60,010 nt of DNA from Rhodovulum adriaticum (GTDB lineage Bacteria > Pseudomonadota > Alphaproteobacteria > Rhodobacterales > Rhodobacteraceae), in the NCBI RefSeq assembly GCF_004345735.1, contig NZ_SLXL01000015.1:1-60010 (forward strand), written 5' to 3'. The notes beneath the pieces were generated by a model. It was given only the letters and a program-made list of their open reading frames with translations. It was not told the DNA's origin and made no database searches. A program made the position numbers and the translations under genes. Of this stretch, positions 19,536 through 44,135 are shown one piece after another. How positions within the stretch are numbered: position 1 is the stretch's first letter; every line of letters starts with the position of its first letter.

Positions 19536-19563
19536 TCCCCCTTCTTCTTGGTGAAAATACCCA
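19536..19563 (+). repeat. 3'-end element, copy 1 (after trmB)
   Basis: CCCCCTTCTTCTTGG, three variable bases, then AAATACCC. Close copies lie at 29501-29527 (plus) and 44109-44135 (minus). Each is just past a stop codon, in the sense direction. The sequence has no strong stem-loop. Its function is unknown. Confidence 0.8.
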
Positions 19564-19667
19564 AATCCCGACCGCGCGACCGGGCACCCCGCAGGGGGCT
19601 TGGCGCTGGACCGCAGCCCGCGCATGCGCTACCCCGCCGGTGCAGATGACGTGAAAGGATGCGCCCC

Positions 19668-21026
19668 ATGTCCGTCCATGGCGACCCGATCCCGATGACC
19701 GCCCGCCGGGGCGCTGCGCTGAGCGGCACGGCAGAGGTGCCCGGCGACAAATCGATCAGCCACCGCGCGCTGATCCTGGGCGCGCTCAGCGTCGGCGAAA
19801 CCCGGATCACCGGCCTGCTGGAGGGGCAGGACGTGCTGGATACCGCCCACGCGATGCGCGCCATGGGGGCAGAGGTCACCCATCACGGCCCCGGCGAATG
19901 GACGGTCCAAGGTGTGGGCGTGGGCGGCTTTGCCGAGCCTGCGGACGTGATCGATTGCGGCAATTCCGGCACCGGCGTGCGGCTGATCATGGGGGCGATG
20001 GCGACCTGCCCGATCACCGCGACCTTTACCGGCGATGCCTCGCTGCGCAAACGTCCGATGGGGCGCGTCACCGACCCGCTGGCGCTGTTCGGGGCACAGG
20101 CGGTGGGCCGCGCGGGCGGGCGGCTGCCGATGACGATCGTCGGCGCGGCGCAGCCGGTTCCGGTGCGCTATTCCGTGCCGGTGCCCTCGGCCCAGGTGAA
20201 ATCAGCGGTGCTGCTGGCCGGCCTGAACGCGCCGGGCGAAACCGTGGTGATCGAGCGCGAGGCGACGCGCGATCATACCGAACGCATGCTGGCCGGTTTC
20301 GGCGCCGAAATCCGGGTAGAGGACAGCGACGAAGGCCGCATCATCACCCTGACCGGCCAGCCGGAACTGACCCCGCAAACCATCGCCGTGCCGCGCGATC
20401 CCAGCTCTGCCGCCTTCCCGGTCTGCGCCGCCCTGATCGTCGAGGGATCGGACGTACTGGTACCCGGCATCGGGCTGAACCCCACCCGCGCGGGGCTGTT
20501 CACCACCCTGCGCGAAATGGGCGCCGGCCTGACCTATGAGAATGAGCGCGAAGAGGGCGGCGAGCCGGTGGCCGACCTGCGCGCCCGCTTCTCGCCCGAC
20601 ATGCGCGGCATAGAGGTTCCGCCCGAGCGCGCGCCCAGCATGATCGACGAATACCCGATCCTGTCGGTCGTCGCGGCCTTTGCCCAGGGGCCGACCGTGA
20701 TGCGCGGGATCAAGGAATTACGCGTCAAGGAAAGCGACCGCATCGCCGCCATGGCGGACGGACTGACTGCCTGCGGGGCGCGGGTCGAAACCGGTGCGGA
20801 CTGGATGACCGTGCACGGCATGGGGCCGGGCGGCCTGCCGGGCGGGGCCACCTGCGCCACCCATCTGGATCACCGCATCGCCATGTCGTTCCTGGTTGCG
20901 GGGCTGGCCGCACAGGCGCCCGTCACCGTGGACGATGCCGGGCCGATCGCCACGTCTTTCCCGGTGTTCGAACCGCTGATGGAACGGCTGGGCGCGACCT
21001 TCGACGGGGCAGAACGGTGCGTGTGA
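19668..21026 (+). CDS. aroA: 3-phosphoshikimate 1-carboxyvinyltransferase (EPSP synthase), class II-like
   Basis: AroA makes EPSP from shikimate-3-phosphate and PEP on the aromatic amino-acid path. I start at ATG 19668 ([15 protein letters not shown], 452 residues), which has AAAGG 9 bases upstream. The sequence closely follows the Agrobacterium CP4-type enzyme, with [71 protein letters not shown] and [12 protein letters not shown]. At the PEP/glyphosate loop it reads NSGTG where CP4 has NAATG. Its end overlaps the next gene by 10 bases. Confidence 0.96.
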
Positions 21027-21421
21027 CCGGCAGTTGCCTGTGCGGCGCGGTGCGCTACCGCGTGAACGGCCCCCTGCGCCCGGTGATCGCCTGCCATTGC
21101 ACCCAGTGCCGCAAGACCAGCGGCCACCACGTCGCCGCCACATCCGCCCCGCGCGACAGCGTGGAAATCGCGGGACAGGTGAACTGGTATCGTTCTTCGC
21201 CCGCGGCGCGGCGCGGGTTCTGCCCGGTCTGCGGGTCAAACCTGTTCTGGGATGGGCCGGGCACGCATCTGTCCATCTTTGCCGGCACGCTTGATGGCGA
21301 TCCGGGCGTTCGGCTTGCGGGCCATATCTTTTGCGCCGACAAGGGCGCCTATTACGAAATCGAGGGCCCCCTGCCGCGCGCCGACGGGGCGGACCCGGAA
21401 CTGACGACGCAGGTGTCATGA
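21017..21421 (+). CDS. GFA-family zinc protein (glutathione-dependent formaldehyde-activating-like)
   Basis: The protein has 134 residues from GTG 21017, overlapping the aroA end. Cysteines are arranged as in GFA/CENP-V folds: SCLCGAVRY (about residue 6), [11 protein letters not shown] (about 27-37) and [13 protein letters not shown] (about 69-81). Members bind zinc, and a few have been linked to glutathione or formaldehyde, but most are uncharacterised. It overlaps both neighbours (aroA by 10 bases, cmk by ATGA), so it has been built into the aroA-cmk transcript and is probably translationally coupled. Confidence 0.85.
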
Positions 21422-22026
21422 GCTTTACGGTTGCCATCGACGGACCCGCCGCAGCGGGCAAGGGCACGATCAGCCGCGCGGTGGCCGCGCATTTCGGCTT
21501 TGCCCATCTGGACACGGGCCTTTTGTATCGCGCGGTGGGGGCGCGCATGCTGGACGGGCTGGACCCGGTCGAGGCCGCCCAGACCCTGGACCCGGCCAGC
21601 CTGGAACGCGACGACCTGCGCAGCCCGGCCGTTTCCCAGGCCGCCAGCAAGGTGGCCCCGATCCCCGAGGTGCGCGCTGCCCTGCTGGATTTCCAGCGCG
21701 CCTTTGCCGCGCGTGCCGGGGGGGCGGTGTTGGACGGGCGCGATATCGGAACGGTGATCTGCCCCGACGCGCCGGTCAAACTGTTCGTGACCGCATCCGA
21801 CACCGTGCGGGCCGAACGCCGCTACCGCGAATTGGCGGAAAAGGGCGTCGAAACCACGTTCGACGAGGTGCTGGCCGAGATGCAAGAACGCGACCGCCGC
21901 GACAGCGAGCGGGCCGCCGCACCGCTGAAACCGGCCAAGGACGCGGTGGTGCTGGATACCTCGCAGATGTCGATCGACGAGGCTGTGGCCGCAGCGGTGG
22001 CCGCGATCGAGGAACGGCGCGGCTGA
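21418..22026 (+). CDS. cmk: Cytidylate kinase
   Basis: Cmk phosphorylates CMP and dCMP for nucleotide synthesis. The protein has 202 residues. The P-loop [11 protein letters not shown] is at residues 7-17, followed by [12 protein letters not shown]. The lid region contains [23 protein letters not shown], then RAERRYREL and [13 protein letters not shown]. The C-terminal [14 protein letters not shown] is typical. The start ATG overlaps the stop of the GFA gene (ATGA). The aroA-cmk-rpsA order is a conserved bacterial arrangement. Confidence 0.95.
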
Positions 22027-22152
22027 CCCCTTGCGGCCCGCTGTTGCCGGAAAACCCCAACGCTGGACCTTTGCCCCGGTGGGGCTGTGCGACTCGCCCG
22101 ATCCGTGACATCAGGTCGGCGTCCGAAACACGCAACACACAGGAGGCGTGAC

Positions 22153-22239
22153 ATGCATATCACCCATCACGCCCCCGTATCGCGTTTCGGCCAATGTGTC
22201 GGCTTCCAGGTATCGTGGCGAACTTTTTCGCGGCGATGA
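22153..22239 (+). CDS. Possible 28-residue small ORF with an ideal ribosome binding site
   Basis: In the 362-bp gap between cmk and the DUF1127-like gene, ATG 22153 follows a perfect AGGAGG with 6-base spacing. It opens a frame beginning MHITHHAPVSRFGQCVGF and ending SRR at a TGA (22237-22239). It contains three His, one Cys and a basic end. There is no recognisable family. It may be a real small protein, a leader peptide, or an accidental site. The rest of the gap shows nothing else I can name. Confidence 0.4.
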   Translation: MHITHHAPVSRFGQCVGFQVSWRTFSRR

Positions 22240-22622: not shown

Positions 22623-22626
22623 GCAG

Positions 22627-24540: not shown

Positions 24541-24566
24541 GGCAGCCTTTCCCGGCCTGCCAACGA

Positions 24567-25491: not shown

Positions 25492-26160
25492 ATGTCCGCT
25501 GACATCCGTATCAAGATCTGCGGCCTGCAAACGCCGGCCGTAGTCGCCTGCGCCGCACAACTGGGCGTAGCCTATATCGGGCTGGTCTTTTTCCCGAAAT
25601 CGCCCCGCCACCTGGGGATAGAGGCCGCGCGCGCCCTGGCGCTGGACGCCCCGCCGGGCCTGGCCAAGGTGGCGCTGACCGTGAACGCGGACGATGCGCA
25701 GTTGCAGGCGATGCTGGACCGCGTCCCGATCGACATGTTGCAACTGCACGGCACCGAACCGCCCGAGCGCGTCGCAGAGATCCGCGCCCGCTTTGGCCTG
25801 CCAGTGATGAAGGCCGTGGGCGTCGCCGATGCCGACGATCTGCCCGCGCTGGACACCTATGCAAAGGTCGCCGACCAGTTGCTGGTCGATGCCAAACCGC
25901 CGAAAGGGGCCGATCTGCCCGGCGGCAACGGGCTGGCCTTTGATTGGCGGCTGATCGCGAACCGTCGCTGGGCGGTGCCCTGGATGCTGGCCGGGGGGCT
26001 GACGCCGGAAAACGTAGCCCAGGCCATCGCGCTGACCGGCGCGCGACAGGTCGATGTGTCCTCTGGCGTCGAATCGGCGCCCGGGGTCAAGGATGAGGCA
26101 AGGATGGCCCGTTTCGTGGCCGCCGCACGGGGAGAGTCCGAAACATGCGCACCCTGCTGA
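25492..26160 (+). CDS. trpF: Phosphoribosylanthranilate isomerase
   Basis: TrpF isomerises phosphoribosylanthranilate in tryptophan synthesis. The 222-residue protein has the barrel N-terminus [12 protein letters not shown] with the catalytic Cys at about residue 9. It continues with [26 protein letters not shown], and [13 protein letters not shown] leading to [15 protein letters not shown], a phosphate-binding and product-binding signature. It overlaps the next small gene by 16 bases. trpB follows after two small genes. Confidence 0.95.
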
Positions 26161-26483
26161 CCCTGATCGTTCTGGTTGTCGGGCTGGCCCTGGCCGCCGC
26201 CTTTACCAAGCCGACAGAGCCCGATTTCACCGCCCAACTGGAAACCTGGCTGATGGCGCAGATCGACGCCGCCGAGATCGACAGCGAAACCGACCCGGCC
26301 CGCGCCGCGCTGTTGGCCGCGTGCAAGCTGGGCCGCAGCCAATGCGTGCAGGTGCTGCGCGCGATGATCGAAGTGGAGTACGAGGACCGCGTCCTGTATT
26401 CGCGGGCCACGGTGACCACCGGTCGCCAGGATCCGGCCATCTGCTACGGCCTGTTCACAAAGATCGTCTGCACGCGCCCCTGA
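26145..26483 (+). CDS. Small exported protein, DUF4359-like
   Basis: The protein has 112 residues. An N-terminal hydrophobic segment [20 protein letters not shown] is probably an uncleaved anchor or signal. The mature part begins [15 protein letters not shown] and ends with [23 protein letters not shown]. Three or four Cys could form disulphides. The TKPTEPDF start and CYGLFTKI ending resemble DUF4359, but I am not certain. It overlaps the trpF end by 16 bases and so is probably co-translated. The function is unknown. Confidence 0.7.
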
Positions 26484-26540
26484 CCCCTTGCCGATACAGT
26501 TGGAGGCGGCTAGGCGCGTCCAAGCCACCGGAGTTTTTCA

Positions 26541-26774
26541 ATGGCCTTTGTGCGACATATCCAGAGAGATGATCGCGAGATCCGTTCGATTCATCCAACT
26601 CAGCTTGACTGTAAATACATCGTCCAAGACAAGGATGGACGGAAAGTCCTCCAACTGAATACCTACGGCTCTGAGGATCGTGACATCCCAGGAAAACTAA
26701 GCCAAACCCTGCAGTTCAGTGAAGGCTCCGCGAAAGAACTATACGAAATCCTAAAGCGGGAATTTGGATTCTAG
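26541..26774 (+). CDS. AT-richer small protein inserted ahead of trpB
   Basis: The protein has 77 residues, [20 protein letters not shown], with GGAG 7 bases before the ATG. Its codons use many A/T-ending forms (aaatac, gatcgt, ctaaag), unlike trpF and trpB on either side, which suggests recent acquisition. Visible features are [24 protein letters not shown], split around residues 21-44, and [22 protein letters not shown], at the C-terminal end. Similar small proteins occur scattered in bacteria, sometimes carrying a probably wrong formyltransferase label. The function is unknown. Confidence 0.75.
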
Positions 26775-26782
26775 GGGGCACC

Positions 26783-28012
26783 ATGGCCAACGATCTGTTC
26801 AACTCCTTCATGACCGGCCCGGACGACAAGGGCCGCTTCGGCGATTTTGGCGGGCGTTTCGTGTCGGAAACGCTGATGCCGCTGATCCTGGAGCTTGAGG
26901 CGCAATACGAACACGCCAAGACCGACCAAAGCTTCTGGGACGAGATGCACCACCTGTGGACGCACTACGTCGGCCGTCCCTCGCCCCTCTACTTCGCGGA
27001 ACGGATGACCGAGCGTCTGGGCGGGGCCAAGATCTATCTGAAACGTGACGAGCTGAACCACACCGGCGCGCACAAGATCAACAACGTGCTGGGCCAGTTG
27101 CTGCTGGCCCGCCGCATGGGCAAGACGCGGATCATCGCCGAAACCGGCGCCGGTCAGCACGGCGTCGCCACCGCCACGGTTTGCGCGAAATTCGGCATGA
27201 AATGCGTGGTCTACATGGGTGCCCATGATGTCGAACGGCAGAAACCCAACGTCTTCCGCATGCGCCTGCTGGGCGCCGAGGTGGTGCCGGTCACCTCTGG
27301 CCGCGGCACGCTGAAGGACGCGATGAACGACGCGCTGCGCGATTGGGTGACCAATGTGCGCGACACCTTCTACTGCATCGGCACGGTGGCGGGGCCGCAC
27401 CCCTACCCGGCCATGGTCCGCGATTTCCAGTCGATCATCGGCAAGGAAGCCCGTGAACAGATGATGGCCGCCGAGGGACGCCTGCCCGACACGCTGATCG
27501 CCGCCATCGGGGGCGGATCGAACGCGATGGGCCTGTTCTATCCCTTCCTCGACGACAAGGACGTCCGCATCATCGGGGTAGAGGCCGGCGGCCACGGCGT
27601 GGACATGAAGATGGAACATTGCGCCAGCCTGACCGGCGGGCGCCCCGGCGTGCTGCACGGCAACCGCACCTACCTGTTGCAGGACGAGGACGGGCAGATC
27701 CTTGAGGGGCACTCGATCTCGGCCGGGCTGGATTATCCCGGCATCGGCCCGGAACACGCCTGGCTGCACGACACCGGCCGCGCCGAATACGTTGCGATCA
27801 CCGATGCCGAGGCGCTGGAGGCGTTCCAGTTCTCCTGCGCGACCGAGGGCATCATTCCCGCGCTGGAACCCAGCCACGCCCTGGCCCATGTGATGAAGAT
27901 CGCGCCCGAGTTGCCCGCAGATCACATCCTCTGCATGAATATGTGCGGCCGTGGCGACAAGGATATCTTTGCCGTGGCGCGTCACCTGGGCGAGGAGATG
28001 GAGGGCGAATAA
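26783..28012 (+). CDS. trpB: Tryptophan synthase beta chain
   Basis: TrpB joins indole and serine with PLP. The 409-residue protein has the PLP lysine at Lys98 ([15 protein letters not shown]), the phosphate-binding loop GGGSNAMG at about residues 248-255, and [13 protein letters not shown] at about 128-140. The N-terminal stretch [14 protein letters not shown] is typical. trpA is not in the window; alphaproteobacteria often have trpF-trpB-trpA, and here a minus-strand gene follows instead. An AT-rich small gene sits 8 bases upstream. Confidence 0.97.
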
Positions 28013-28028
28013 CGCCCTCCCTGACCGC

Positions 28029-28394
28029 TTACAGCGCGTAACGCTCCAGAATCTCCAACGGCACGATCCGGCAGGCGGCCTGGTGCGTGGCCGCCAGATC
28101 CACCTGCGGCGCGCAGCCCTCGTCATGGGCCTGCAGGAACCGCGCCGCGCACAGGCACCAGCGATCCCCCGGCTTCAGCCCCGCGAAACCGTATTCTGGG
28201 CGCGGGGTGGACAGGTCGTTGCCGACATAGGCCGAATAGGCCAGGAATTCCGCCGTCATCACCGCGCAGACGGTATGGCTGCCCGCATCTTCCGGCCCGG
28301 TGTCGCAGCAACCGTTGCGATAGAATCCGGTCATCGGCGCGGTGGAACAGGGTTTCAGTGGTTCCCCGTGAACGTTCAGCGACGGGACAGGCAT
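28029..28394 (-). CDS. DUF2237 family protein
   Basis: The protein has 121 residues and starts MPVPSLNVHGEPLKPCS at ATG 28394 behind AGGAGG; the frame stays open upstream without a better start. Motifs are MTGFYRNGCCDTGPEDAGSHTVCAVMT split over residues 21-47, EFLAYSAYVGNDLSTPRP, and LKPGDRWCLCAARFLQA, which together mark DUF2237. Five or six conserved Cys suggest metal or disulphide roles. The function is unknown. It is 11 bases after pth on the same strand. Confidence 0.85.
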   Translation of the reverse strand: MPVPSLNVHGEPLKPCSTAPMTGFYRNGCCDTGPEDAGSHTVCAVMTAEFLAYSAYVGNDLSTPRPEYGFAGLKPGDRWCLCAARFLQAHDEGCAPQVDLAATHQAACRIVPLEILERYAL

Positions 28395-28405
28395 AGGCAC
28401 TCCTC

Positions 28406-29089
28406 CTACCGGAATCGGTCGACCAGCTTTTCCAGGGGCGTTCGGGTGTCCTGCTGCGGCTCCTCGGCCCTGGCGGGTTTCGCGGGGGCCTCGGCCTTGG
28501 CCGCGCCGCCGGAACTGCGCGGCGGCGCCACCCGCAATCCCACCGCGTTGGAAAACCCAGCGGCGTCGCCCTCGGCCAGGGGCACCGCCCCGTCGGAAAT
28601 CCCGCGCATCAGATCGTCCAGCCAATCGCGGTCGGCCTTTGCGAAATCGCTCAGCACATAGCCGGACACCCGATCCTTGTGGCCGGGATGCCCGATCCCC
28701 AGCCGCACCCGGCCATAGTCGGCCCCCAGATGCGCATGGATCGACCGCAGGCCGTTATGACCCGCATGCCCGCCGCCCTGCTTCACCCGGCATTTGCCCG
28801 GCGCAAGGTCCAGCTCGTCGTGGAACACCACCACATCGCCCGCCTCCAGCTTGAAGAACTGCACCGCCGCGGCCACGCAATCCCCGGATCGGTTCATGTA
28901 GGTCTCGGGCTTCAACAGCACCACTTTTTCGCGGCCCAGCCGCCCCTCGGCCATCTGGCCCTGAAACTTGGCCCGCCACGGCGTGAATCCGTGATCGGCG
29001 GCAATCCGATCCACCGCCATGAAACCGATATTGTGCCGGTTGCCCGCGTATTTCGCGCCGGGATTGCCCAGCCCCACGAAGAGACGCAT
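28406..29089 (-). CDS. pth: Peptidyl-tRNA hydrolase
   Basis: Pth releases tRNA from peptidyl-tRNAs dropped by ribosomes. I start at ATG 29089 ([16 protein letters not shown], 227 residues). Signature elements are [20 protein letters not shown] (catalytic His at residue 20), [33 protein letters not shown] and [10 protein letters not shown]-terminal extension of about 45 residues, rich in Ala, Pro and Lys ([17 protein letters not shown]), goes beyond the usual 190 residues. The extension is common in this order of bacteria and is probably disordered. Confidence 0.94.
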
Positions 29090-29178
29090 TCGTGATGTCC
29101 TCGCGCTTGCAGTTTGCGCCTTGATGCCCTGAACTGCCCCGAAAAACCAGTCTTGCACCACAAAAGGAAGGGATCGCG

Positions 29179-29490: not shown

Positions 29491-29500
29491 GGGCACACCG

Positions 29501-29527
29501 CCCCCTTCTTCTTGGCAAAAATACTCA
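29501..29527 (+). repeat. 3'-end element, copy 2 (after the ABM gene)
   Basis: CCCCCTTCTTCTTGG, then CAA, then AAATACTC, starting 10 bases after the stop at 29490, in the sense direction. It matches copies at 19536 and 44109. The upstream bases GCACACCG also resemble copy 1 (GCACCGT). Confidence 0.8.
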
Positions 29528-29573
29528 TGGCCCCACGCGTGGGGCCGGGCGCCAGCTGGGGGCAAGGGCGCAT

Positions 29574-29601
29574 AAAAAACGGGGCCCCGCAGGGCCCCGT
29601 T
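29574..29601 (-). terminator. Intrinsic terminator for rplY
   Basis: On the minus strand AACGGGGCCC and GGGCCCCGTT form a perfect 10-bp stem with loop TGCG, followed by TTTTTATG. It lies 25 bases past the rplY stop. Confidence 0.85.
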
Positions 29602-29626
29602 CGGATCGGCACGCGATGGGCGGGGA

Positions 29627-30256: not shown

Positions 30257-30339
30257 GTTTCGGTCTCCTAGATTAAAGGGCATCCTCCAAGGGTGTATGC
30301 CCGGATGAAGCCGTGCCCTTAACCGAGACTCGCCACGAT

Positions 30340-34748: not shown

Positions 34749-34782
34749 GTGTTTCCTGTCGCGCGATCCCTCAGGACTGGCG

Positions 34783-35571
34783 CTATTTCAACTCGTATGC
34801 CTTGATCCAGATCACCGCATCCTGGCTGAGTTCCTTGCCCTGGTGTTCGGTTTCGGGGCCGGAGCCGAGGGCGGCGAAGCCCCAGTGGCCGGCGCGCGGG
34901 ATGCCGAAGGTGAACACGCCGTTTTCATCGGTGATCGCCACCAGCGCGCCACCCGGCATCGCGCCCACGCTGGCCGCGCCCGCGGCGTTGGTGTCCATGT
35001 CGGGTTCGGCCGCGATGTATTCGATCTCGATCTCGGCGCCGGGCACCGGTTCCCCCTCGGACAGCAGCTGCGCCGAGAAGGTGGAGCCCGCGATCACGTT
35101 GTTCGGCTTGTTCAGCGGCACGAATTCCGTGGGCAGGCCGGCCGGTTCGTTCCACCCCGTGGGCACCCCGCCCTTGTTGAAGAAGACCTTGGTGATCTGC
35201 TGGATATAGATGTCCTCGGACCCCTCGTAATAGGGCGCGGGCGTCAGCGCGACGATATAGTCGCCGTTGCGTTTCACCGGCAGCGTGGCCTGATAGGCGG
35301 CGGCCGTGTTGTCCGCCCCGGCAAAGGTGATCGGCGACAGCGACCCGGTCAGGTCGATCCTGTCGCCCTTGAACAGGGCGAACAGATCCTCGGGCGTGCC
35401 CATGTCCATGGCGTGCCCGTTTTCCATCGGGTGCCAAAAGATCAGCTTCAGCGGCACGTCGCCGGGCCGCTCGATGTTCGGGTCGGGGCTGTAGACCAGC
35501 TGGAAATGGGCAAAGGCGGGCGCGGCGGTCAGCGCCGCCAGGGCGGCAGAGGCGAAAAGGCGTTTCATCAT
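34783..35571 (-). CDS. DUF4198 periplasmic protein of the feo operon
   Basis: The protein has 262 residues from ATG 35571 (GAGG 6 bases upstream; an in-frame ATG at 35577 is too close to it). A signal peptide MKRLFASAALAALTAAPAFA precedes a mature start HFQLVYSPDP, so a His follows the cleavage site. It continues with LIFWHPMENGHAMDMGTPEDL, PYYEGSEDIYIQQ and an Ig-like C-terminal part (GEPVPGAEIEIEY, ENGVFTFGIPRAGHWGF). This is the DUF4198 pattern, best known beside nickel/cobalt uptake genes. Here it precedes feoA and feoB, so I infer a role in periplasmic metal delivery. Confidence 0.85.
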   Translation of the reverse strand: MMKRLFASAALAALTAAPAFAHFQLVYSPDPNIERPGDVPLKLIFWHPMENGHAMDMGTPEDLFALFKGDRIDLTGSLSPITFAGADNTAAAYQATLPVKRNGDYIVALTPAPYYEGSEDIYIQQITKVFFNKGGVPTGWNEPAGLPTEFVPLNKPNNVIAGSTFSAQLLSEGEPVPGAEIEIEYIAAEPDMDTNAAGAASVGAMPGGALVAITDENGVFTFGIPRAGHWGFAALGSGPETEHQGKELSQDAVIWIKAYELK

Positions 35572-35588
35572 GGTCATCCTCGGATGGG

Positions 35589-35909
35589 TCAGTAGATCTC
35601 GTCGGCGGGCACTTCGATGGTGTGCCCCTCGCCGGCGTCGAACAGCACGCTGAAGGCGCCCGCAGGCTTGTCGAAGGTGAACTCGCTGTTCTCGTCCATC
35701 TTGGCGTCGATCAGGATGTTGCCGTCGCCATCCCGCACCGCCATGCGCACCCCCGCCGCAGAAGAGCCATCCGAAAAGCCCCCCTCGCACAGAACCGTGC
35801 CGTCCCCGTTGTCATAGCACGCGCAAAGCGGCGTATGCGCCTGCGCAAGACCCCCAAAAGAAATAAGAGCCGCGGCAAGCGAAAGGGTGGATATCGTCGA
35901 AATGCGCAT
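35589..35909 (-). CDS. Small Cys-containing periplasmic protein, first gene of the feo operon
   Basis: The protein has 106 residues. A signal peptide ends LISFGGLAQA, giving a mature protein starting HTPLCACYDNGDGTVLCEGG. His plus three Cys at the mature N-terminus are plausible metal ligands. The rest (FSDGSSAAGVRMAVRDGDG, ILIDAKMDENSEFTF) looks like a small beta-sandwich similar to the C-terminal part of the DUF4198 gene. It is 17 bases before that gene and the first gene after the promoter region. I know of similar small proteins beside nickel/cobalt systems, but not in Feo. Confidence 0.78.
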   Translation of the reverse strand: MRISTISTLSLAAALISFGGLAQAHTPLCACYDNGDGTVLCEGGFSDGSSAAGVRMAVRDGDGNILIDAKMDENSEFTFDKPAGAFSVLFDAGEGHTIEVPADEIY

Positions 35910-36014
35910 GGTGTCCTCGTTGTTCTCGCGGCACCGGCAGGCGCCGCGCTATGCGACCAGCGATACCCCTGGCGGCGGGCTTGGGGCGGTGATGGGGTCA
36001 GGCAACTATAACCA

Positions 36015-36057
36015 AGTAATACTGTCAAGAATGCCAACCGCGGCATTCTGTCAAGAC
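36015..36057 (-). promoter_or_regulatory. Candidate operator/promoter of the feo operon
   Basis: GAATGCC and GGCATTC form a palindrome with a 6-base spacer (36029-36048). On the minus strand it is flanked by two direct copies of TCTTGACAG, the second followed by TATTAC and an AT-rich stretch (GGTTATAGT). TTGACA is a consensus -35 hexamer but no well-spaced -10 is clear. It lies about 110-150 bases before the first gene of the operon. Confidence 0.5.
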
Positions 36058-36058
36058 C

Positions 36059-36097
36059 GAAAAAGAAATACGCGGCGCCCAGGATTTGGGCGCCGCG
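36059..36097 (-). terminator. Intrinsic terminator after argF
   Basis: On the minus strand CGCGGCGCCC and GGGCGCCGCG form a perfect 10-bp stem with a 7-base loop, followed by TATTTCTTTTT. It lies about 56 bases past the argF stop and separates argDF from the feo operon. Confidence 0.85.
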
Positions 36098-36152
36098 CCG
36101 CAGCATAGTCCGAAAGCAGAGCGGAGATGACGCAGATCGCGCGCCCGGTGGC

Positions 36153-37079
36153 CTACACCCCCAGGCAGTAGCGCATGACCGCCTTTTGTGCGTGCAGGCG
36201 GTTTTCGGCCTCGTCGAACACGACCGAGGCGGGGCCGTCCATCACCGCGTTGGTGACCTCTTCCTCGCGGTGGGCGGGCAGGCAGTGCATGAACAGCGCA
36301 TCCGGTTTCGCCGCGGCCATCAGCCGGTCGTTCACCTGGTAGGGGCGCAACTGGTTGTGCCGCCGCTCGCGTGCCGACTGGGGATCGTGCATTGAGATCC
36401 AGGTATCGGTGACGATCAGGTCCGCCCCCTCGACCGCACGCATCGGGTCGCGCTCGATTTCCGCCTTCACGCCGGCGGCGCGGGCCTCTTCCAGGAAGCC
36501 TGCCTCGGGGTCCAGCGTCGGCGGGCCGGTAAAGGTGAAGTCGAACCCGAACCGACCCGCCGCATGGATGAAGGAGGCACAGACATTGTTGCCGTCGCCC
36601 GACCAGACCACCTTGCGCCCCGCGATCGGGCCGCGATGTTCCTCATAGGTCAGGATGTCGGCCATGATCTGGCAGGGGTGGCTGCGGTTGGTCAGCCCAT
36701 TGATGACCGGCACGCTGGCGTATTCCGCCATTTCCAGCAGCGTGGCCTCTTCGAACGTGCGGATCATGATCAGGTCGACATAGCGCGACAGCACGCGGGC
36801 GGTGTCGGCGATGGTCTCGCCATGGCCCAACTGCATGTCGTTGCCCGACAGCACCATGGTCTGCCCGCCCATCTGGCGCACGCCCACGTCAAAGCTGACC
36901 CGCGTCCGGGTCGAGGGTTTTTCGAAGATCAGCGCCACCATCCGCCCGGCCAGGGGCTGATCGTCGTCGGGCGCCCCCCGGGGGCGGCTGTTGCGGGCCT
37001 CTTTCATGGCGCGGGCCTGGTCGATCATGGCCCGCAGGTCAGCGGTATCGGTGGCGTTGATGTCCAGGAAATGGGTCAT
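36153..37079 (-). CDS. argF: Ornithine carbamoyltransferase
   Basis: The enzyme makes citrulline from ornithine and carbamoyl phosphate. The 308-residue protein has the carbamoyl-phosphate motif [13 protein letters not shown] (about residues 54-66), then [22 protein letters not shown], and the ornithine-loop [12 protein letters not shown] (about 266-277). The start overlaps the argD stop (ATGA), so argD-argF is translationally coupled. A strong terminator follows. Confidence 0.96.
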
Positions 37080-38269
37080 TGCGTGGCCTCCTTTCCGGCC
37101 AGCGCCGCGGCGGCGGCATCGAGCCGGGACAGGGCCTCGGCGATTTCGTCATCGGTGATCGTCAGGGGCGGCAACAGACGCACCACGTTGTCGGCGGCAG
37201 GCACCGTCAGCAGGTGCCGGGCATAGCCCGCCTGCACCACGTCCGTATTCGTCACCTTGCATTTCAGACCCAGCATCAGGCCCATGCCGCGCACCTCTTC
37301 GAAGATGTCGGGATGGCTGGCGACCAACCCCTCCAGACGCTGGCGCAGCAGGCCGGCCTTGCGGTTCACCTCGTCCAGGAAATCGGGCTGGGCGACGATG
37401 TCCAGCACCGTCTTGCCGACCGCACAGGCCAGCGGGTTGCCGCCATAGGTGGACCCGTGGGTGCCCGCGGTCATGCCGCTGGCGGCCTGTTCCGTGGCCA
37501 GCACCGCGCCCAGCGGAAAGCCGCCGCCGATGCCCTTGGCCACCATCATGATGTCGGGCGCCGCGCCTGCGGCCCATTCATGGGCGAACAGCCGTCCGGT
37601 CCGGCCCATGCCGCACTGCACCTCGTCATAGATCAACAGCGAGCCGGTCTGATCGCACAATTCGCGCAGCCCTTGCAGGCAGGGGGCGGGCAACGGGCGA
37701 ATGCCGCCCTCGCCCTGTACGGGTTCGACCAGGATGGCGGCGACGTTTTCGTCGATGGCGTTCTGCAGAACCGACCCGTGCACGCCAAAGGGCAGATGGA
37801 TGAACCCCGGCAACAGCGGGCCAAAGCCGTGGGTCATCTTTTCCGATCCAGCCGCGGCGATCCCGGCCGAGGACCGGCCATGGAATGCGCCCGAGAAGGT
37901 GACGATGTTCACCCGGTCCGGCTGGCCCCGGTCGTGCCAGTACTTGCGGGCCATCTTGACCGCCAGTTCACAGGATTCCGTGCCCGAATTGGTGAAGAAC
38001 ACCGTATCGGCAAAGGTCTTTTCCACCAGCGCGTCGGCCAGGGCCACCTGTTCGGGGATCTGGTAGAGGTTGGACAGGTGCCACAACCGGCCCGCCTGCG
38101 CGGTCAGTGCCGCCACCAGCGCAGGATGGGCATGCCCCAGGGCATTGACGGCGATCCCCGCCCCGAAATCCAGGTATCGGGTGCCGTCCGCCGCGATCAG
38201 CCAGGTGCCTTCGCCCCGCTCAAAGGCAAGCGGCGCGCGGTTATAGGTCGGCAGGACAGAGGGGATCAT
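37076..38269 (-). CDS. argD: Acetylornithine/ornithine-type aminotransferase
   Basis: This PLP enzyme converts N-acetylglutamate semialdehyde to N-acetylornithine, the step before argF substrates. The 397-residue protein starts [19 protein letters not shown] at ATG 38269 with GAGG upstream. Class-III features are [61 protein letters not shown], and the PLP lysine in [15 protein letters not shown]. argF starts inside its stop codon. Confidence 0.94.
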
Positions 38270-38473
38270 CGGTGAAAACCTCAAAAGTGGAAGCCAAAGG
38301 GGTGCCCCAGCCAAGGGGCCAAGTCAATGTCGGGAAAGAGAGGCGCGTTGGCGCACGCGCGGGCGGCCGATCCTGGGGATCAGCGGCGGCGTCGGCGGGC
38401 GACGATATGAAACGCGATGTTCATGGCCGTGGCTTTAGCGGGGCCGGGCCGGTCTGTCCAGTGCGCCGATGCC

Positions 38474-39247
38474 TCAGCCCAGGGTGACATCCAGCACCAT
38501 CATCAGGATCAGCCCCGCCGTCAGCCCGGCCGTGGCGCGGTTCTGGTGGCCGTGGCGGTGGGTTTCGGGGATGATCTCGTGGCTGATGATGTAGATCATC
38601 GCCCCCGCAGCAAAGGCCAGCCCCCAGGGCAACAGGTGCACCGACACCGACACGGCGCCCGCCCCGATCAGCCCGCCCACCGGCTCGATCAGGCCGGTGG
38701 CCAGCGCGATGGCAAAGGCGCGCAGGCGCGAATAGCCCTGCCCGCGCAAGGCCACGGCCACGGCCAGCCCCTCGGGCGCGTTCTGCAGACCGATGCCGGT
38801 TGCCAGCGACAGCCCGTTGGCGACGTTGCCGCCGCCGAACCCCACGCCGACGGCCATGCCCTCAGGGAAATTGTGGATGGTGATGGCAATGACAAAAAGC
38901 CAGATCTTGGCCAGCGCGGCGGCCTCTGCGCCCTCGCGGCCCTCGATGAAATGTTCGTGCGGCAGCGCCTCGTTCATCGCGGCCACGGCCAGCGCGCCCA
39001 GGGCGATCCCCGCCCCTGACAATAACGCGGCCAGCACCACGCTGCCGTAAAGATCCTGCGCCGCATCGATCCCCGGCAGGATCAGCGAAAAGAACGAGGC
39101 CGACAGCATCACCCCCGCAGCGAAACCCAGCATCGTGTCATTGGCCTGGCGCGACACGCTGCGCCCGACCAGCACCGGCAGCGCGCCGACCCCGGTCATC
39201 AGACCAGCGGCGAGCGAGGCAAGAAGCCCGAGGAGGAGAACGCTCAT
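38474..39247 (-). CDS. ZIP-family metal (zinc/iron) transporter
   Basis: The protein has 257 residues with eight hydrophobic segments, beginning MSVLLLGLLASLAAGLM at ATG 39247. The longer frame upstream of this lies in fghA and is not coding. Helix IV carries HNFPEGMAVGVGFG and helix V carries LQNAPEGLAVAVAL, the paired His-Asn/Pro-Glu-Gly metal sites of ZupT-type importers. A His-rich EALPHEHF loop and the C-terminal ETHRHGHQN are further potential ligands. Metal preference cannot be told from sequence. Confidence 0.9.
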   Translation of the reverse strand: MSVLLLGLLASLAAGLMTGVGALPVLVGRSVSRQANDTMLGFAAGVMLSASFFSLILPGIDAAQDLYGSVVLAALLSGAGIALGALAVAAMNEALPHEHFIEGREGAEAAALAKIWLFVIAITIHNFPEGMAVGVGFGGGNVANGLSLATGIGLQNAPEGLAVAVALRGQGYSRLRAFAIALATGLIEPVGGLIGAGAVSVSVHLLPWGLAFAAGAMIYIISHEIIPETHRHGHQNRATAGLTAGLILMMVLDVTLG

Positions 39248-39442
39248 AGGCTGCACCCTGCGATGCGCGGCCGACATGTACGGACGCGCGGACGGGTTCA
39301 GCCTGCCGCACGGGCCGGTCCGTATGCAATGCGACCGCCGCGCCCAGCGGAACGCGGCACCGCCGGCGATGCCCCGCCACCACGGCCCTTGCCCGCGCGC
39401 GGCCCCCGCGTTACGCCCAAGGCAGGCCAGATGGAGGGTACC

Positions 39443-40273
39443 ATGGAAGCGATTTCGGAAAGCCGGTGTTTCGGCGGGGTGCAGGGGGTTTACAAGCATG
39501 CCTCGGATGCCTGCGGCTGCGACATGACCTTTGGCCTGTTCCTGCCCGCCGAGGCAGAGGACGGCCCGGTGCCTGTGCTGTGGTACCTCTCGGGCCTGAT
39601 GTGCACCCACGCCGAGGCGATGGAAAAGACGGGCGCCCAGCAATGGGCCGCCGAACAGGGGATCGCGCTGGTCTTTCCCGACACCTCGCCGCGCGGCGAG
39701 GGCGTGGCGGACGATCCGGCCTATAATCTGGGATCGGGCGCCGGGTTCTACGTCAACGCCACGCAAGCGCCCTGGGCGCAGAACTACCAGATGTGGGATT
39801 ACGTGGCCGAGGAACTGCCGCGCCTGCTGGTCAACAACGCCGCCATCGACGAGAACCGGCAGGCGATCATGGGCCATTCCATGGGCGGGCACGGCGCGCT
39901 GACCATCGCCATGGCCTATCCGGGGCGTTTCACATCCGTTTCCGCACTGGCGCCGGTCAGCCATCCCAGCACCTCTGACTGGGCGAAAAAGCCGATCCAC
40001 GCCTATCTGGGCGAGGGCAACGTGGACTGGACGCGCCACGACGCCTGCCTGTCGCTGCGCGCCAACGGGTTCAACGGGCCGATGCTGATCGACCAGGGCA
40101 CGGCGGACCCCTTCATTGATGCGCTGATGCCCGAGGCGCTGGCCGCCGCGATCATCGAAACCCGGCACCAGGGCACGGTGCGGATGCAGCCGGGATACGA
40201 CCACAGCTATTTCTTCATCTCCACCTTCATGGAGGATCACGTCGCCTTCCACGCCGAGGCGCTTTACGCGTGA
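39443..40273 (+). CDS. fghA: S-formylglutathione hydrolase
   Basis: FghA hydrolyses S-formylglutathione to formate and glutathione, the second step of glutathione-dependent formaldehyde oxidation. The 276-residue protein starts at ATG 39443, 5 bases after GGAGGG (ATG 39431 is the alternative). The nucleophile Ser is in IMGHSMGGHGALT (about residues 145-157). GTADPFID and QPGYDHSYFF supply the Asp and His of the triad. It overlaps the next gene by 4 bases. Confidence 0.94.
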   Translation: MEAISESRCFGGVQGVYKHASDACGCDMTFGLFLPAEAEDGPVPVLWYLSGLMCTHAEAMEKTGAQQWAAEQGIALVFPDTSPRGEGVADDPAYNLGSGAGFYVNATQAPWAQNYQMWDYVAEELPRLLVNNAAIDENRQAIMGHSMGGHGALTIAMAYPGRFTSVSALAPVSHPSTSDWAKKPIHAYLGEGNVDWTRHDACLSLRANGFNGPMLIDQGTADPFIDALMPEALAAAIIETRHQGTVRMQPGYDHSYFFISTFMEDHVAFHAEALYA

Positions 40274-40737
40274 GCCGGGTTCTGGTCGATGCCGACGCCT
40301 GCCCGGTCAAGGCAGAGGTGCTGCGCGTGGCCGAACGCCACGGGGCGCAGGTGATCTATGTGGCCAACGGCGGCCTGCGCCCGGTCCAGCACCCGCTGGT
40401 GCAGATGATCTATGTCGCCGAGGGCCCGGACGAGGCCGACAAATGGATCGCCGAGGCCGCCGGGCCGGGCGACGTGGTGGTCACGGCCGATGTGCCGCTG
40501 GCCGCGAAAGGCGTGGCCGCGGGCGCGGCGGTGCTGAACCACAATGGCGACGCCTTCACCCAGGCCAACATGGGTGAAAAACTGGCCACCCGCGACCTGA
40601 TGGCCGACCTGCGCGCCGCCGACCCGTTCCGGCAAGGCGGCGGCAAGGGGTTTTCCAAGGCCGACCGCGCGCGCTTTCTGGATGCGCTGGAACGGGCGTT
40701 GCGGGCGGCACGGAACGCCGCGAAAGATGGGGCCTGA
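40270..40737 (+). CDS. YaiI/YqxD family protein (DUF188)
   Basis: The protein has 155 residues from a GTG start overlapping the fghA stop (GTGA). Motifs are VLVDADACPVKAEVLRVA at the N-terminus, GPDEADKWIAEAAGPGDVVVTADVPLAAK split over residues 57-85, and NMGEKLATRDLMADLR. The family is related to PIN-like nuclease folds (Asp-rich start DADACP) but its activity is undefined. It is in a compact fghA-yaiI-HAD-OCD run of overlapping genes. Confidence 0.9.
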   Translation: MSRVLVDADACPVKAEVLRVAERHGAQVIYVANGGLRPVQHPLVQMIYVAEGPDEADKWIAEAAGPGDVVVTADVPLAAKGVAAGAAVLNHNGDAFTQANMGEKLATRDLMADLRAADPFRQGGGKGFSKADRARFLDALERALRAARNAAKDGA

Positions 40738-40738
40738 C

Positions 40739-41365
40739 ATGACAGCGGATGCAGTGGTTTTCGACATCGGCCGGGTGCTGATCGACTGGCAGCCCGAGGA
40801 ATTCTATGACCGCGCCCTGGGCCCCGACCGGCGGCGCACGCTGTTCGACGCGGTGGACCTTTACACCATGAACGCCCATGTCGATCGCGGCGCCGATCTG
40901 CACGACGCGGTCGAGGCGCTGGCCGCCGCCCATCCCGGTTGGGCCGCCGAAATCCGGCTGTGGCGCGACAGCTGGCTGGACATGGCGCAGCCCGAAATCC
41001 CCGGCTCGGTCCGCCTGCTGCGGGCGCTGAAGGCGCGCGGCGTACCGGTCTATGCGCTGACGAATTTCGGCATCCAGACCTTCGAGATCGCCCGCGCCGC
41101 CTATCCCTTCCTGGATCTGTTCGACGCGCGCTTTGTCTCTGGCCACCTGCGGGTGATGAAACCCGAGGCGGAAATCTACGCGATCCTGGAGGCCGAGACC
41201 GGCCACGCGCCGGAACGGTTGATCTTTACCGACGACAATGCCGACAATGTGGCCGCCGCCGCAGCGCGCGGCTGGCAGGCGCATCTGTTCACCGGGCCCG
41301 ACGGCTGGGCCGCACAACTGGTGCGCGCCGGGCTATTGACGGAACAGGAGGCCGCCCATGGCTGA
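40739..41365 (+). CDS. HAD-superfamily hydrolase, YihX-like
   Basis: The protein has 208 residues. The first HAD motif is VVFDIGRVLIDW (Asp9), with the FD-x-G-x-V-L-ID form typical of YihX-type sugar-phosphate phosphatases. It continues with YALTNFG (motif II), SGHLRVMKPEAEIY (motif III lysine) and LIFTDDNADNVAAA (motif IV). The cap is a small helical insertion (residues about 18-85). The substrate is unknown. It starts one base after the upstream stop codon, and its end overlaps the ornithine-cyclodeaminase-like gene by 8 bases. Confidence 0.88.
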   Translation: MTADAVVFDIGRVLIDWQPEEFYDRALGPDRRRTLFDAVDLYTMNAHVDRGADLHDAVEALAAAHPGWAAEIRLWRDSWLDMAQPEIPGSVRLLRALKARGVPVYALTNFGIQTFEIARAAYPFLDLFDARFVSGHLRVMKPEAEIYAILEAETGHAPERLIFTDDNADNVAAAAARGWQAHLFTGPDGWAAQLVRAGLLTEQEAAHG

Positions 41366-42284
41366 AATCATCGGGTACGACGAGGGCGAGGCGCGCATGA
41401 CATGGCCGGGCCTCTGCACCGCGCTGGAGGTCGGGCATACCCTGCCCCGCGCGCAGATCACCGACAGTTTTCTCTATCGCGGCGCCGATACGCTGTTGTC
41501 GCGCGCGGCCTGGATCGACGGGCTGGGGCTGGCGGTGAAATCGGCAACGATCTTTCCCGGCAACGCAGCACGCGACCTGCCCAGCGTGAATGGCGGGGTC
41601 AGCCTGTATTCCGACAGCGACGGCACGCTGTCCGCGATCATCGACTTTCACCTTGTGACCAAGTGGAAAACCGCGGGCGACAGCCTGCTGGCCGCGACCA
41701 AACTGGCCCGCAAGGACAGCCGCGACATCCTGATCGTGGGCGCGGGCAGCGTGGCGCGATCCCTGCATGCGGCTTATTCCAGCGCCTTTCCCGATGCACG
41801 TTTCACCGTCTGGAACCGCTCGCGCGCCGGGGCGGAACGGCTGGCCGCCGCCTGTCCGGGCGTCACCATCGCCGACGACCTGGAAACCGCCGTGCGCAGC
41901 GCCGATATCGTCACATCCGCCACCATGGCAACGGAACCGCTGATCCGGGGCGACTGGCTGCAACCGGGCCAGCATGTGGACCTGATCGGCGCCTTCCGCC
42001 CCGACATGCGCGAGGCCGACGATACAGCGTTGCAGCGGGCGCGCGTCTTCGTCGACAGCCGGGACACGACCCTGGATCATATTGGCGAGTTGAAGATCCC
42101 GCTGCAAAGCGGCGCGATCAGCCGCGACACGGTGCTGGCCGATTACTACGACCTGCAAGGCGGGGCCTTTGCCCGCCGCACGGATGACGAGATCACGCTG
42201 TTCAAGAATGGCGGCGGCGCGCATCTGGACCTGATGACCAGCCGTTACATCCTGGATGCCTGGCAGACGCGCCCCGCCTCTTGA
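41358..42284 (+). CDS. Ornithine cyclodeaminase/mu-crystallin family protein
   Basis: The protein has 308 residues. The N-terminal half is a split dimerisation domain (MTWPGLCTALEVGH, GLAVKSATIFPGNAA, FHLVTKWKTAGDSLLAATKLA). The Rossmann part has DILIVGAGSVARSLHAAY at about residues 123-140. ATMATEPLIRGDWLQPGQHVDLIGAFRPDMRE is spread over residues 190-222. Family members convert ornithine to proline or act as imine reductases or alanine dehydrogenases. The activity is undecided here. It is coupled to the HAD gene by an 8-base overlap. Confidence 0.87.
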   Translation: MAEIIGYDEGEARMTWPGLCTALEVGHTLPRAQITDSFLYRGADTLLSRAAWIDGLGLAVKSATIFPGNAARDLPSVNGGVSLYSDSDGTLSAIIDFHLVTKWKTAGDSLLAATKLARKDSRDILIVGAGSVARSLHAAYSSAFPDARFTVWNRSRAGAERLAAACPGVTIADDLETAVRSADIVTSATMATEPLIRGDWLQPGQHVDLIGAFRPDMREADDTALQRARVFVDSRDTTLDHIGELKIPLQSGAISRDTVLADYYDLQGGAFARRTDDEITLFKNGGGAHLDLMTSRYILDAWQTRPAS

Positions 42285-42302
42285 TCGCGGGGGGGGCGGC
42301 CT

Positions 42303-42920
42303 TCAGGCCCGGTAGCGGGCCAGGAACATGTCCACCGCCCCGTCGATCACGCGGGTCATCTCGGCCTCGGCAAAGCTGTGGCCGCCGCCGAACATCGTGC
42401 GGGTATAAAGGTCCACCTTGCACAGCTCTGCGAACTGGTCGGCGGCAAGTTCCAGATCGTCGATGGCCAACTCGCCGCGGGCGCGGGCCTCGGCCAGGTG
42501 CCCGACGATTTCCTGCCGCAAGCGGAGCGGCCCGGATTCGTAGAAGGCCGCGCCCAGGTCGGGGAAACGGTCGGCCTCTGCCACGCAGATACGGAACACC
42601 GCCTGGTTGAACGGCGCCAGGAACGAGGCCAGCATGTGCCGCGCGGCCTGTCGCAGGACGGTGTCGATGGGCGCGGAAAAGTCGATCTCGCTCAGCGCCT
42701 CGCCGGTCTGGCGGTCGCATTCCAGGCGGAACACCTCCATGAACAGCAGGCGCTTGTCCGGGAAATAGCTGTAAAGCGTGGCCTTGGACACGCCGGCGGC
42801 GCGGGCGATCTCGTCCACGCTGGCCCCTTCGAAGCCGTCGCGCAAAAACACCTCGCGCGCGCCTTCCAGCACCTGGTCGAACTTGCGACCCCGTTTGATC
42901 CTGTCGCTGGGTGCGTTCAT
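42303..42920 (-). CDS. TetR-family transcriptional regulator
   Basis: The protein has 205 residues. The N-terminal helix-turn-helix reads FDQVLEGAREVFLRDGFEGAS and VDEIARAAGVSKATLYSYFPDKRLLF (about residues 14-60). The C-terminal ligand domain (about 65-205) contains ALSEIDFSAPIDTVLRQ and a long Ala-rich helix bundle. The ligand is unknown. It is transcribed away from mbfA, separated by 166 bases that include the ICE palindrome nearer mbfA. It could regulate itself or the ornithine-cyclodeaminase operon, whose end it faces. Confidence 0.9.
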   Translation of the reverse strand: MNAPSDRIKRGRKFDQVLEGAREVFLRDGFEGASVDEIARAAGVSKATLYSYFPDKRLLFMEVFRLECDRQTGEALSEIDFSAPIDTVLRQAARHMLASFLAPFNQAVFRICVAEADRFPDLGAAFYESGPLRLRQEIVGHLAEARARGELAIDDLELAADQFAELCKVDLYTRTMFGGGHSFAEAEMTRVIDGAVDMFLARYRA

Positions 42921-43052
42921 CGGTGCCTCTCTGCTCCCCCGCAGTCTAAACCCGCCGGTTCACTTTTCGCAAGCCGGGCGCGGCGATTGGCGGACTGGCC
43001 TGTTTTCGCGGTTGCGGCATGATCGGGCTTGCACACGGTGCCAGCCACCTTA

Positions 43053-43071
43053 TTTTAGAATTATTCTAACA
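43053..43071 (+). promoter_or_regulatory. Iron control element (Irr box) upstream of mbfA
   Basis: TTAGAATTATTCTAA (43055-43069) is a perfect 7-1-7 palindrome with a flanking T on the left, matching the ICE consensus TTTAGAA-N3-TTCTAAA closely. It ends about 17 bases before the mbfA ATG, so binding by Irr would block transcription or its start, as reported for mbfA in other alphaproteobacteria. Confidence 0.85.
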
Positions 43072-43086
43072 AACCGGAGCCTGCCC

Positions 43087-44064
43087 ATGATTCCCGGTCT
43101 GAGCCAACGCCGCCGATTTTCCGACCTGTCCGAACAGGAAGTCCTTGCACTCGCCATTTCCTCGGAAGAGGACGACGCGCGCATCTATCGCAGCTATGCG
43201 GAACAGCTGCGCGCCGATTACCCCGACAGTGCCCGCATCTTCGAGGACATGGCCCGCGAAGAGGACGGCCACCGCCAGCGCCTGATCGAAAAGCACCGCG
43301 AACGGTTCGGCGATGTGATCCCGCTGATCCGGCGCGAACATGTGTCGGGCTATTACGCCCGCCGCCCGGTCTGGCTGGTGCAGAACCTCGGGATCGAACG
43401 CATCCGCGAAGAGGCCGAGATGATGGAACGCGACGCCCATCATTTCTACCTGAAAGCCGCGCAAAAGACGCAGGATGCCGCCACGCGCAAAATGCTGGGC
43501 GACCTGGCCGCTGCCGAGGCCGGGCATTCCGCCTCTGCCGAGCGGCTGACCGAACGCCACCTGGACGAGGACAGCAAGGAGGCTGAGGAACGCACCGCCC
43601 ACCGGCAATTCGTGCTGACCTGGGTGCAGCCGGGACTGGCGGGGCTGATGGACGGGTCGGTATCCACCCTGGCGCCGATCTTTGCCACCGCCTTTGCCAC
43701 GCAGGACACCTGGACGACCTTCCTGGTCGGTCTGGCCGCGTCGGTCGGCGCGGGGATTTCCATGGGCTTTACCGAGGCCGCGTCCGATGACGGCGAAATC
43801 TCGGGCCGCGGCTCGCCCATCAAGCGCGGCATCGCCTCGGGGGTGATGACAACGCTCGGCGGCCTGGGTCACGCGCTGCCCTACCTCATCCCGCATTTCT
43901 GGACGGCCACGATCATCGCAATGATCGTTGTGTTCGTGGAACTGTGGGCCATCGCCTGGATCCAGAAGAAATATATGGAAACGCCATTCTTCCGCGCGGC
44001 CTTCCAGGTGGTGCTGGGGGGGGCGCTGGTATTTGGCGCAGGGGTACTGATCGGATCGGCCTAG
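43087..44064 (+). CDS. mbfA: MbfA: membrane-bound ferritin-like/VIT1 iron transporter
   Basis: MbfA exports iron and protects against iron overload and peroxide. The 325-residue protein starts MIPGLSQRRRFSDLSEQE at ATG 43087. The N-terminal ferritin-like domain (about residues 10-165) has EEDDARIYRSYAEQLR, EDMAREEDGHRQRL and EEAEMMERDAHHFY, i.e. several E-x-x-H di-iron ligands. The C-terminal VIT1-like domain (about 175-325) has FVLTWVQPGLAGLMDGSVS and about five membrane segments. An Irr box lies just upstream, so repression at low iron is expected. Confidence 0.93.
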   Translation: MIPGLSQRRRFSDLSEQEVLALAISSEEDDARIYRSYAEQLRADYPDSARIFEDMAREEDGHRQRLIEKHRERFGDVIPLIRREHVSGYYARRPVWLVQNLGIERIREEAEMMERDAHHFYLKAAQKTQDAATRKMLGDLAAAEAGHSASAERLTERHLDEDSKEAEERTAHRQFVLTWVQPGLAGLMDGSVSTLAPIFATAFATQDTWTTFLVGLAASVGAGISMGFTEAASDDGEISGRGSPIKRGIASGVMTTLGGLGHALPYLIPHFWTATIIAMIVVFVELWAIAWIQKKYMETPFFRAAFQVVLGGALVFGAGVLIGSA

Positions 44065-44108
44065 GCTGCCGCAAGGGGTTTCGCCGCGCCTGCGCGCGGC
44101 GACCCGCC

Positions 44109-44135
44109 GGGGTATTTGGACCAAGAAGAAGGGGG
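44109..44135 (-). repeat. 3'-end element, copy 3 (after zapE, minus strand)
   Basis: On the minus strand CCCCCTTCTTCTTGG, then TCC, then AAATACCCC. It begins 16 bases past the zapE stop (44152), in the sense direction, preceded by CCTCCGCC. It matches copies at 19536 and 29501. Confidence 0.8.

Follow-up and report, generated by a model that had tools for sequence, protein, structure and literature searches.

The motif and its three sites in the Rhodovulum adriaticum window

The stretch analyzed here, called the window throughout, comprises 60,010 nucleotides of Rhodovulum adriaticum (Rhodobacteraceae; RefSeq assembly GCF_004345735.1, contig NZ_SLXL01000015.1, positions 1 to 60,010, forward strand). 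It contains three copies of a short, spaced sequence element, each located just past the stop codon of a different gene: trmB, a gene for a HmuQ-type ABM protein, and zapE. A preliminary description of this DNA had written the element as CCCCCTTCTTCTTGG-N3-AAATACYC and given its length as 27 bp. The written pattern spans 26 bases and is present with 0 mismatches at 19537-19562 (+), 29501-29526 (+), and 44110-44135 (-), compared with 0 matches in 100 dinucleotide shuffles. The distances from the preceding stop codons had been measured correctly, at 11 bases for trmB (stop ending at 19525), 10 for the ABM gene (stop ending at 29490), and 16 for zapE (stop at 44152). Family matches also bear out the three gene names; TrmB scores 106.3 bits with its NCBIfam model (cut-off 112.65) and additionally matches Pfam Methyltransf_4.

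The leading CCCC of the earlier pattern is not general, and the conserved unit is CTTCTTCTTGG-N3-AAATACCC. On the complementary strand, hereafter the purine strand, the order of features is gene stop, hairpin, G[GA]GTATTT, N3, and [CG]CAAGA[AT]GAAG. Site 1 (19541..19562, minus strand) lies between trmB and aroA, both of which are on the plus strand. Its purine strand reads GGGTATTT-TCA-CCAAGAAGAAG and is preceded, 5 nt before GGGTATTT, by a hairpin predicted by folding (19568..19583, minus strand); no minus-strand gene is called there. Site 2 (29505..29526, minus strand) is located between the ABM/hmuQ gene on the plus strand and the gene for ribosomal protein L25 on the minus strand (29627-30256). 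Its minus strand reads GAGTATTT-TTG-CCAAGAAGAAG, with a predicted hairpin (29529..29546, minus strand) 2 nt before GAGTATTT. Site 3 (44110..44131, plus strand) separates a plus-strand rubrerythrin/VIT1-domain gene, whose stop ends at 44064, from zapE on the minus strand; its plus strand reads GGGTATTT-GGA-CCAAGAAGAAG, and the predicted hairpin (44081..44102, plus strand) ends 7 nt before GGGTATTT. The preliminary description had considered the element to lack a hairpin and had set aside a terminator. That dismissal is unsupported, given that the opposite strand has a predicted hairpin at all three sites, ending 2 to 7 nt before G[GA]GTATTT. Among window gaps of at least 30 bp, those between convergent genes hold a site in 2 of 3 cases, those between co-directional genes in 1 of 24, and those between divergent genes in 0 of 10.

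Copy number, conservation, and taxonomic distribution

The genome of origin (G000; 3.35 Mb, 36 contigs) holds 76 copies of the exact core CTTCTTCTTGG-N3-AAATAC, against 0 of the reversed control. When the trailing CCC is included, there are 75 exact copies, 10 with a single deviating position, and 1 with two; four copies have a two-base spacer and two more a four-base spacer. The number per genome is about 90. Of the positions of the element, 19 are close to fixed, and a tail of decaying copies is not seen in this genome. The information content is 38.6 bits per site (83 copies), where 16.2 bits would suffice to mark 90 places. The N3 spacer is skewed to TCC and TCA, yet not fixed. One locus (L110) was left out of edge-sensitive counts, which cover 75 of the 76 sites, and L120, a duplicate of another stretch, was left out. 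Recurring GCCTCCGGCGG and GGGGGTCCGGGGG stretches precede GTATTT, and two loci (L078 and L081) share a longer stretch past AAATACCC (CCGGCCCGGAACGGGCCGGAAAAAGGAATGCGCC), which forms a small repeat in its own right.

Exact cores were found in 15 of the 16 genomes of the genus set, the genome of origin included, with 4 to 94 copies each; G010 has none. At the level of the family, 31 of 61 genomes hold CTTC[AT]TCTTG[GC]-N3-AAATAC[CT]C at up to one mismatch, in genome- or genus-specific spellings, and genomes with other spellings may escape this count. In other alphaproteobacterial families, 140 genomes were sampled, and 0 hold the exact pattern; this class-wide search covered 142 genomes, including the genome of origin and one further family member (0 copies). 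A contig scan returned mainly Rhodobacteraceae-type names and a few others among the matches listed (80 of at least 108). One genome (G070) combines two spellings, mostly CTTCATCTTGG with AAATACCC, but also CTTCTT[CT]TTGC or CTTCTTCTTTG with AAATACTC, a coexistence that would fit two readers. Searches of an open-access library listed no description of the element or of a partner that recognizes it, and the novelty of the element is provisional, as most subscription papers lie outside that library.

Gene context and orientation

Genes were called with a codon-usage script trained on high-GC genes. All 76 sites of the genome of origin lie outside called genes, with 0 of 75 exact copies inside one. 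Read in the orientation of the preliminary description, 34 sites are located in convergent gaps, 4 in divergent gaps, and 1 at a contig end; of the co-directional rest, 22 have both neighbors on the other strand and 15 have both on the same strand. The claim that the element always follows a gene in the sense direction thus describes the three window copies but not the genome, in which a same-strand gene ends on the 5' side of only 50 of 76 sites (within 20 nt for 27 of 76). A 3' neighbor is called for 75 sites, 56 of which face the stop of an opposite-strand gene; at 53 of 75 sites, such a stop lies 10-105 nt away on the AAATAC side. Read on the purine strand, these 56 sites would come after a gene stop, while 15 of 76 sites lie between two genes of the strand opposite to it, which gives a divided picture of terminator-like placement. 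In the other genomes (108 loci), 122 sites were analyzed, 6 of which overlap called genes; the 110 with both neighbors comprise 44 convergent, 41 between two other-strand genes, 23 between two same-strand genes, and 2 divergent. Over background gaps, which include the sites' own gaps, convergent versus divergent placement has an odds ratio of 29. A one-mismatch site in Sagittula is likewise located between convergent genes. Of the random orientation or distance that the preliminary description had named as a refutation, half is borne out: genome-wide, orientation to the upstream gene is mixed, while location is non-random, with convergent gaps enriched and divergent gaps depleted. The earlier view of a dispersed gene-end element common to unrelated genes holds far above chance, both in the shuffles and in the genome counts.

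Two further observations concern polarity. At unpaired sites between co-directional genes, the purine strand is the coding strand 55 times versus 31 (p 0.013). Where two copies form a pair, the head-to-head arrangement outnumbers its reverse by 21 to 1 among the loci analyzed, some orthologous pairs included, so that each flanking gene reaches its own copy hairpin side first. Pair gaps of up to 30 bp (53 pairs) group around two sizes, 16-21 and 8-12 bp. This is a hint, though no proof, of helical phasing; the periodicity is broad (R 0.41-0.43 over periods 9 to 12).

Along the chromosome, neither orientation nor position follows a consistent origin-terminus pattern in G001, G013, and G015, and spacing is near random in the two genomes tested (coefficients of variation 1.10 and 1.00). 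In G015, sites of one strand follow each other in long runs (8 plus and after them 9 minus), a pattern that G001 and G013 do not share. No gene family stands out beside the sites as a candidate reader, the two largest clusters comprising 22 and 11 of 480 flanking proteins. At some loci of the genome of origin, such as L074, L088, L090, and L094, purine-strand AAGAAGAAGG sits 4-10 nt before an opposite-strand start codon, where it may double as a ribosome-binding site.

Predicted hairpins on the purine strand

Structure and a T-run, rather than a set sequence, define intrinsic terminators. In the genome of origin, folding z-scores against dinucleotide shuffles fall below -2 on the AAATAC side at 25-27 of 75 sites, compared with 5-7 of 75 on the other side and 6 for a stretch further out. 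The stems vary between sites as well as between species, and have no fixed sequence. The element resembles intrinsic terminators in its gene-end position and in having a hairpin followed by GTATTT on one strand, and one copy from a viral contig carries a hairpin and seven T directly before GAGTATTT. It differs from them in its lack of T-run enrichment, in its 19 near-fixed positions, 11 of which lie past the T-rich part, and in its genus dialects.

Two candidate properties of the pairs were rejected. A trade-off in which a pair replaces the hairpin is not claimed (p 0.016 in the genome of origin, 0.06 in G012, 0.70 elsewhere, and 0.09 pooled). Formation of an RNA hairpin by the pair itself has weak support, as N3 is complementary in 7 of 49 pairs, where shuffling gives 2.8 (p 0.014).

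The window also contains, between the L25 stop and site 2, a separate hairpin followed by six T (29574..29599, minus strand), which has the appearance of a conventional intrinsic terminator for the L25 gene and is absent from the output of a simple terminator scan. At gathering score, Rfam 15 matches two tRNAs and one SAM/SAH riboswitch in the window and gives no match at the three sites. The riboswitch (RF01727; 16933-16982, plus strand) is located directly 5' of a gene called at 16990-18156 (plus strand).

The same loci in related genomes

To compare one locus across relatives, trmB was fetched from 16 genomes by protein, blind to the presence of the element. The gap behind it holds an element in 11 genomes. 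In nine of these, it is on the purine strand, with one mismatch in two of the nine; in the other two, the genome of origin and G011, it is on the strand of the preliminary description. In G002, a copy with four mismatches is found on the latter strand, and G003, G010, G012, and G013 have no element in this gap. That sister species carry the element in opposite orientations in this gap speaks against an RNA signal on the CUUCUU strand. A double-stranded DNA site explains the flip better than a site acting purely on RNA, which is compatible both with a trans-acting reader and with the strand-neutral site discussed below.

At the end of zapE, an intact site is present in the genome of origin only, and G002 again has a four-mismatch copy. 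Genome-wide, G002 retains four exact copies. A switch of dialect was considered for this genome and rejected in favor of decay, because, with up to two mismatches allowed, its zapE spelling is found there only once. In G002, the element seems to be no longer in use, which favors selection on it elsewhere and a partner that can be lost; together, this decay and the genus dialects point to a losable trans-acting partner.

Flank matching to G012 paired 29 of 47 sites, a few of them to a neighboring site. For 26 sites of the genome of origin, both flanks fall on one G012 locus; the orientation is the same in 24 of 26, the two exceptions being members of pairs in the genome of origin, and N3 differs in 24 of 26. 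These loci were picked for holding the element, so presence and exactness follow by construction, and orientation and N3 divergence are the informative features. The flanks around the orthologous cores have diverged, and the hairpins have been replaced along with them.

Copies in clusters of the gene transfer agent type

A scan of viral contigs yielded 24 sites in 23 contigs. As the gene caller is trained on high-GC genes, 10 low-GC contigs (10 of the 24 sites) were left out. Of the 14 sites in the 13 high-GC contigs, 12 are located between co-directional genes, and 12 of these 12 are on the purine strand (11 distinct, as two contigs share one); the remaining two sites occupy near-identical divergent gaps. 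Homology placed seven between the large terminase and portal genes and one after a capsid gene; three others separate a tail-terminator gene from a major-tail gene. From this gene order, we infer that the contigs are gene transfer agent (GTA) clusters rather than phages. The GTA cluster of Caulobacter has a terminator, tested with a reporter, behind its large-terminase gene; bypass of this terminator is partial with GafZ, a protein similar to the C-terminal domain of R. capsulatus GafA (PMC11150451). This terminator, terGTA, occupies the same position, just past the large terminase gene, but consists of three 150-bp GC-rich direct repeats, unlike the element; the match is one of position, not of sequence (PMC11150451).

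A candidate transcription-end module and its alternatives

The element is a gene-end element of Rhodobacteraceae that is probably linked to terminators. More specifically, we propose, with a probability of about one half, that it is a transcription-end module of this family with a sequence part that is read in trans, on the purine strand. The module would consist of a hairpin of free sequence, G[GA]GTATTT, three loosely constrained bases, and [CG]CAAGA[AT]GAAG. RNA polymerase leaving a gene would pause at the hairpin and stop near GTATTT, while the purine part, still ahead of the polymerase as DNA, would be held or read by a trans-acting factor, resulting in efficient release. Between convergent genes, one module would serve one gene, or a head-to-head pair would serve both; reversed copies, such as site 1, would either end antisense transcription or, with a protein bound, form a roadblock. 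In favor of this module are the excess of predicted hairpins on the AAATAC side and their presence at all three window sites, the opposite-strand stops on that side, the polarity of 55:31 at unpaired co-directional sites, 21:1 in pairs, and 12:0 in viral contigs, the 9 of 11 trmB gaps with the element on the purine strand, and the position of the Caulobacter terminator. That 19 near-fixed positions are respelled genus by genus suggests such a recognizing partner.

Several observations weigh against termination by this module. Hairpins are weaker outside the genome of origin: z falls below -2 at 27 of 58 unpaired sites there, at 7 of 39 in G012, and at 17 of 102 in other genomes, and in viral contigs a z of -2 or lower is reached at only 2 of 15 sites. 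Before GTATTT, there is no enrichment of T-runs (T4 or longer at 16 of 293 versus 10 of 293 in a control stretch), leaving the fixed TATTT only, and the simple terminator scan, applied to 26001-46000, lists neither site 2 nor site 3. Of the unpaired co-directional sites, 31 of 86 are reversed at a similar hairpin rate (7 of 31 versus 14 of 55). Some sites in the genome of origin are only 4-16 nt before a start codon, and others elsewhere are found within likely operons, namely an exact-dialect site between hypD and hypE in Fuscovulum and, in Paracoccus, a divergent variant with a spacer of four bases between nrdE and nrdF.

These points leave room for a strand-neutral double-stranded DNA site bound by a sequence-specific protein, which would insulate, mark topology between converging genes, or organize the chromosome, the hairpins being the genes' own. 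Such a site, which we consider unlikely but a serious competitor, would explain the occurrence of both orientations even at the trmB gap of sister species, the surplus of information per site (38.6 versus 16.2 bits), the divergence of N3 in 24 of 26 comparisons with G012, and the clustering of pair gaps at 16-21 and 8-12 bp. Evidence against it comes from the polarity of 55:31 at co-directional genes, 12:0 in viral contigs, and 21:1 in pairs, from the lack of a consistent origin-terminus pattern, from the near-random spacing, and from the broad gap periodicity. The preliminary description had suggested an RNA signal on the CUUCUU strand after the stop codon, such as a Rho entry, RNA-binding protein, small RNA, or processing site. 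This strand is rich in C/U, and 27 of 76 sites start within 20 nt past a same-strand stop, but 26 of 76 have no same-strand gene ending upstream, and the element is on the opposite strand at 9 of 11 trmB gaps and at 12 of 12 co-directional high-GC viral sites. With both orientations present even in sister species, such a signal is improbable.

A mobile dispersed repeat, such as a repetitive extragenic palindrome (REP), is about equally hard to sustain. According to PMC3733652, REPs and the mosaic elements that they form (BIMEs) are also short and intergenic, avoid divergent gaps, form head-to-head dimers, and have a patchy distribution. Their stem-loops have a family-specific sequence and a GTAG or CGTC foot (PMC3733652), whereas the element has a free hairpin and a fixed tail; its N3 and flanks are free, its copies show no decaying tail, and its consensus lacks either foot. 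The least probable alternative is a long signal of the DNA-uptake type with genus dialects, which biased transformation or transfer by GTAs would have spread and which would be tolerated only between genes. Dialects, inverted pairs at gene ends, and decay in one lineage would fit it, and Haemophilus uptake signals form terminators too, likewise as inverted pairs of a fixed word at gene ends (PMC5217627). Against it stand the low number of about 90 copies per genome, compared with about 1300 in H. influenzae (PMC5217627), and the 0 of 75 exact copies in called genes. The same source reports unexplained spaced motif pairs, an example being GCTTAT-N5-AAGCG in A. ebreus, with about 100 mostly intergenic copies, 44 convergent and 4 divergent (PMC5217627). 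It resembles the element in copy number, intergenic location, and convergent bias, and differs in being of another sequence, palindromic, and from other bacteria.

Three further candidates were rejected. Promoters on the purine strand would, in head-to-head pairs, direct transcription toward one another over a distance of 3-25 bp. A chromosome-position signal is at odds with the origin-terminus and spacing results given above. A peptide-coding role, considered in the frame TCT-TCT-TGG-NNN only, conflicts with the location of all 76 sites outside called genes and with N3 being TAA or TGA in several copies.

Returning to the transcription-end module, the proposal can be extended, though this step is tentative and rather doubtful: a dispensable factor would read a 22-bp double-stranded site beyond gene-end hairpins and enforce polar termination, co-evolution of reader and site would have produced the genus dialects, and GTA clusters would use the site as a gate for the anti-terminator GafA. 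Eukaryotic protein-bound terminators, such as those of mTERF, TTF-I, and Reb1, have a long asymmetric site at transcript ends that halts the polymerase. The likeness of the element to these sites is an analogy, its own factor being hypothetical. If the extended proposal is true, the element would be a bacterial counterpart of protein-bound terminators. Finding the partner would provide a testable handle on the end of transcription in an abundant marine and phototrophic family, and on the silencing of GTA operons.

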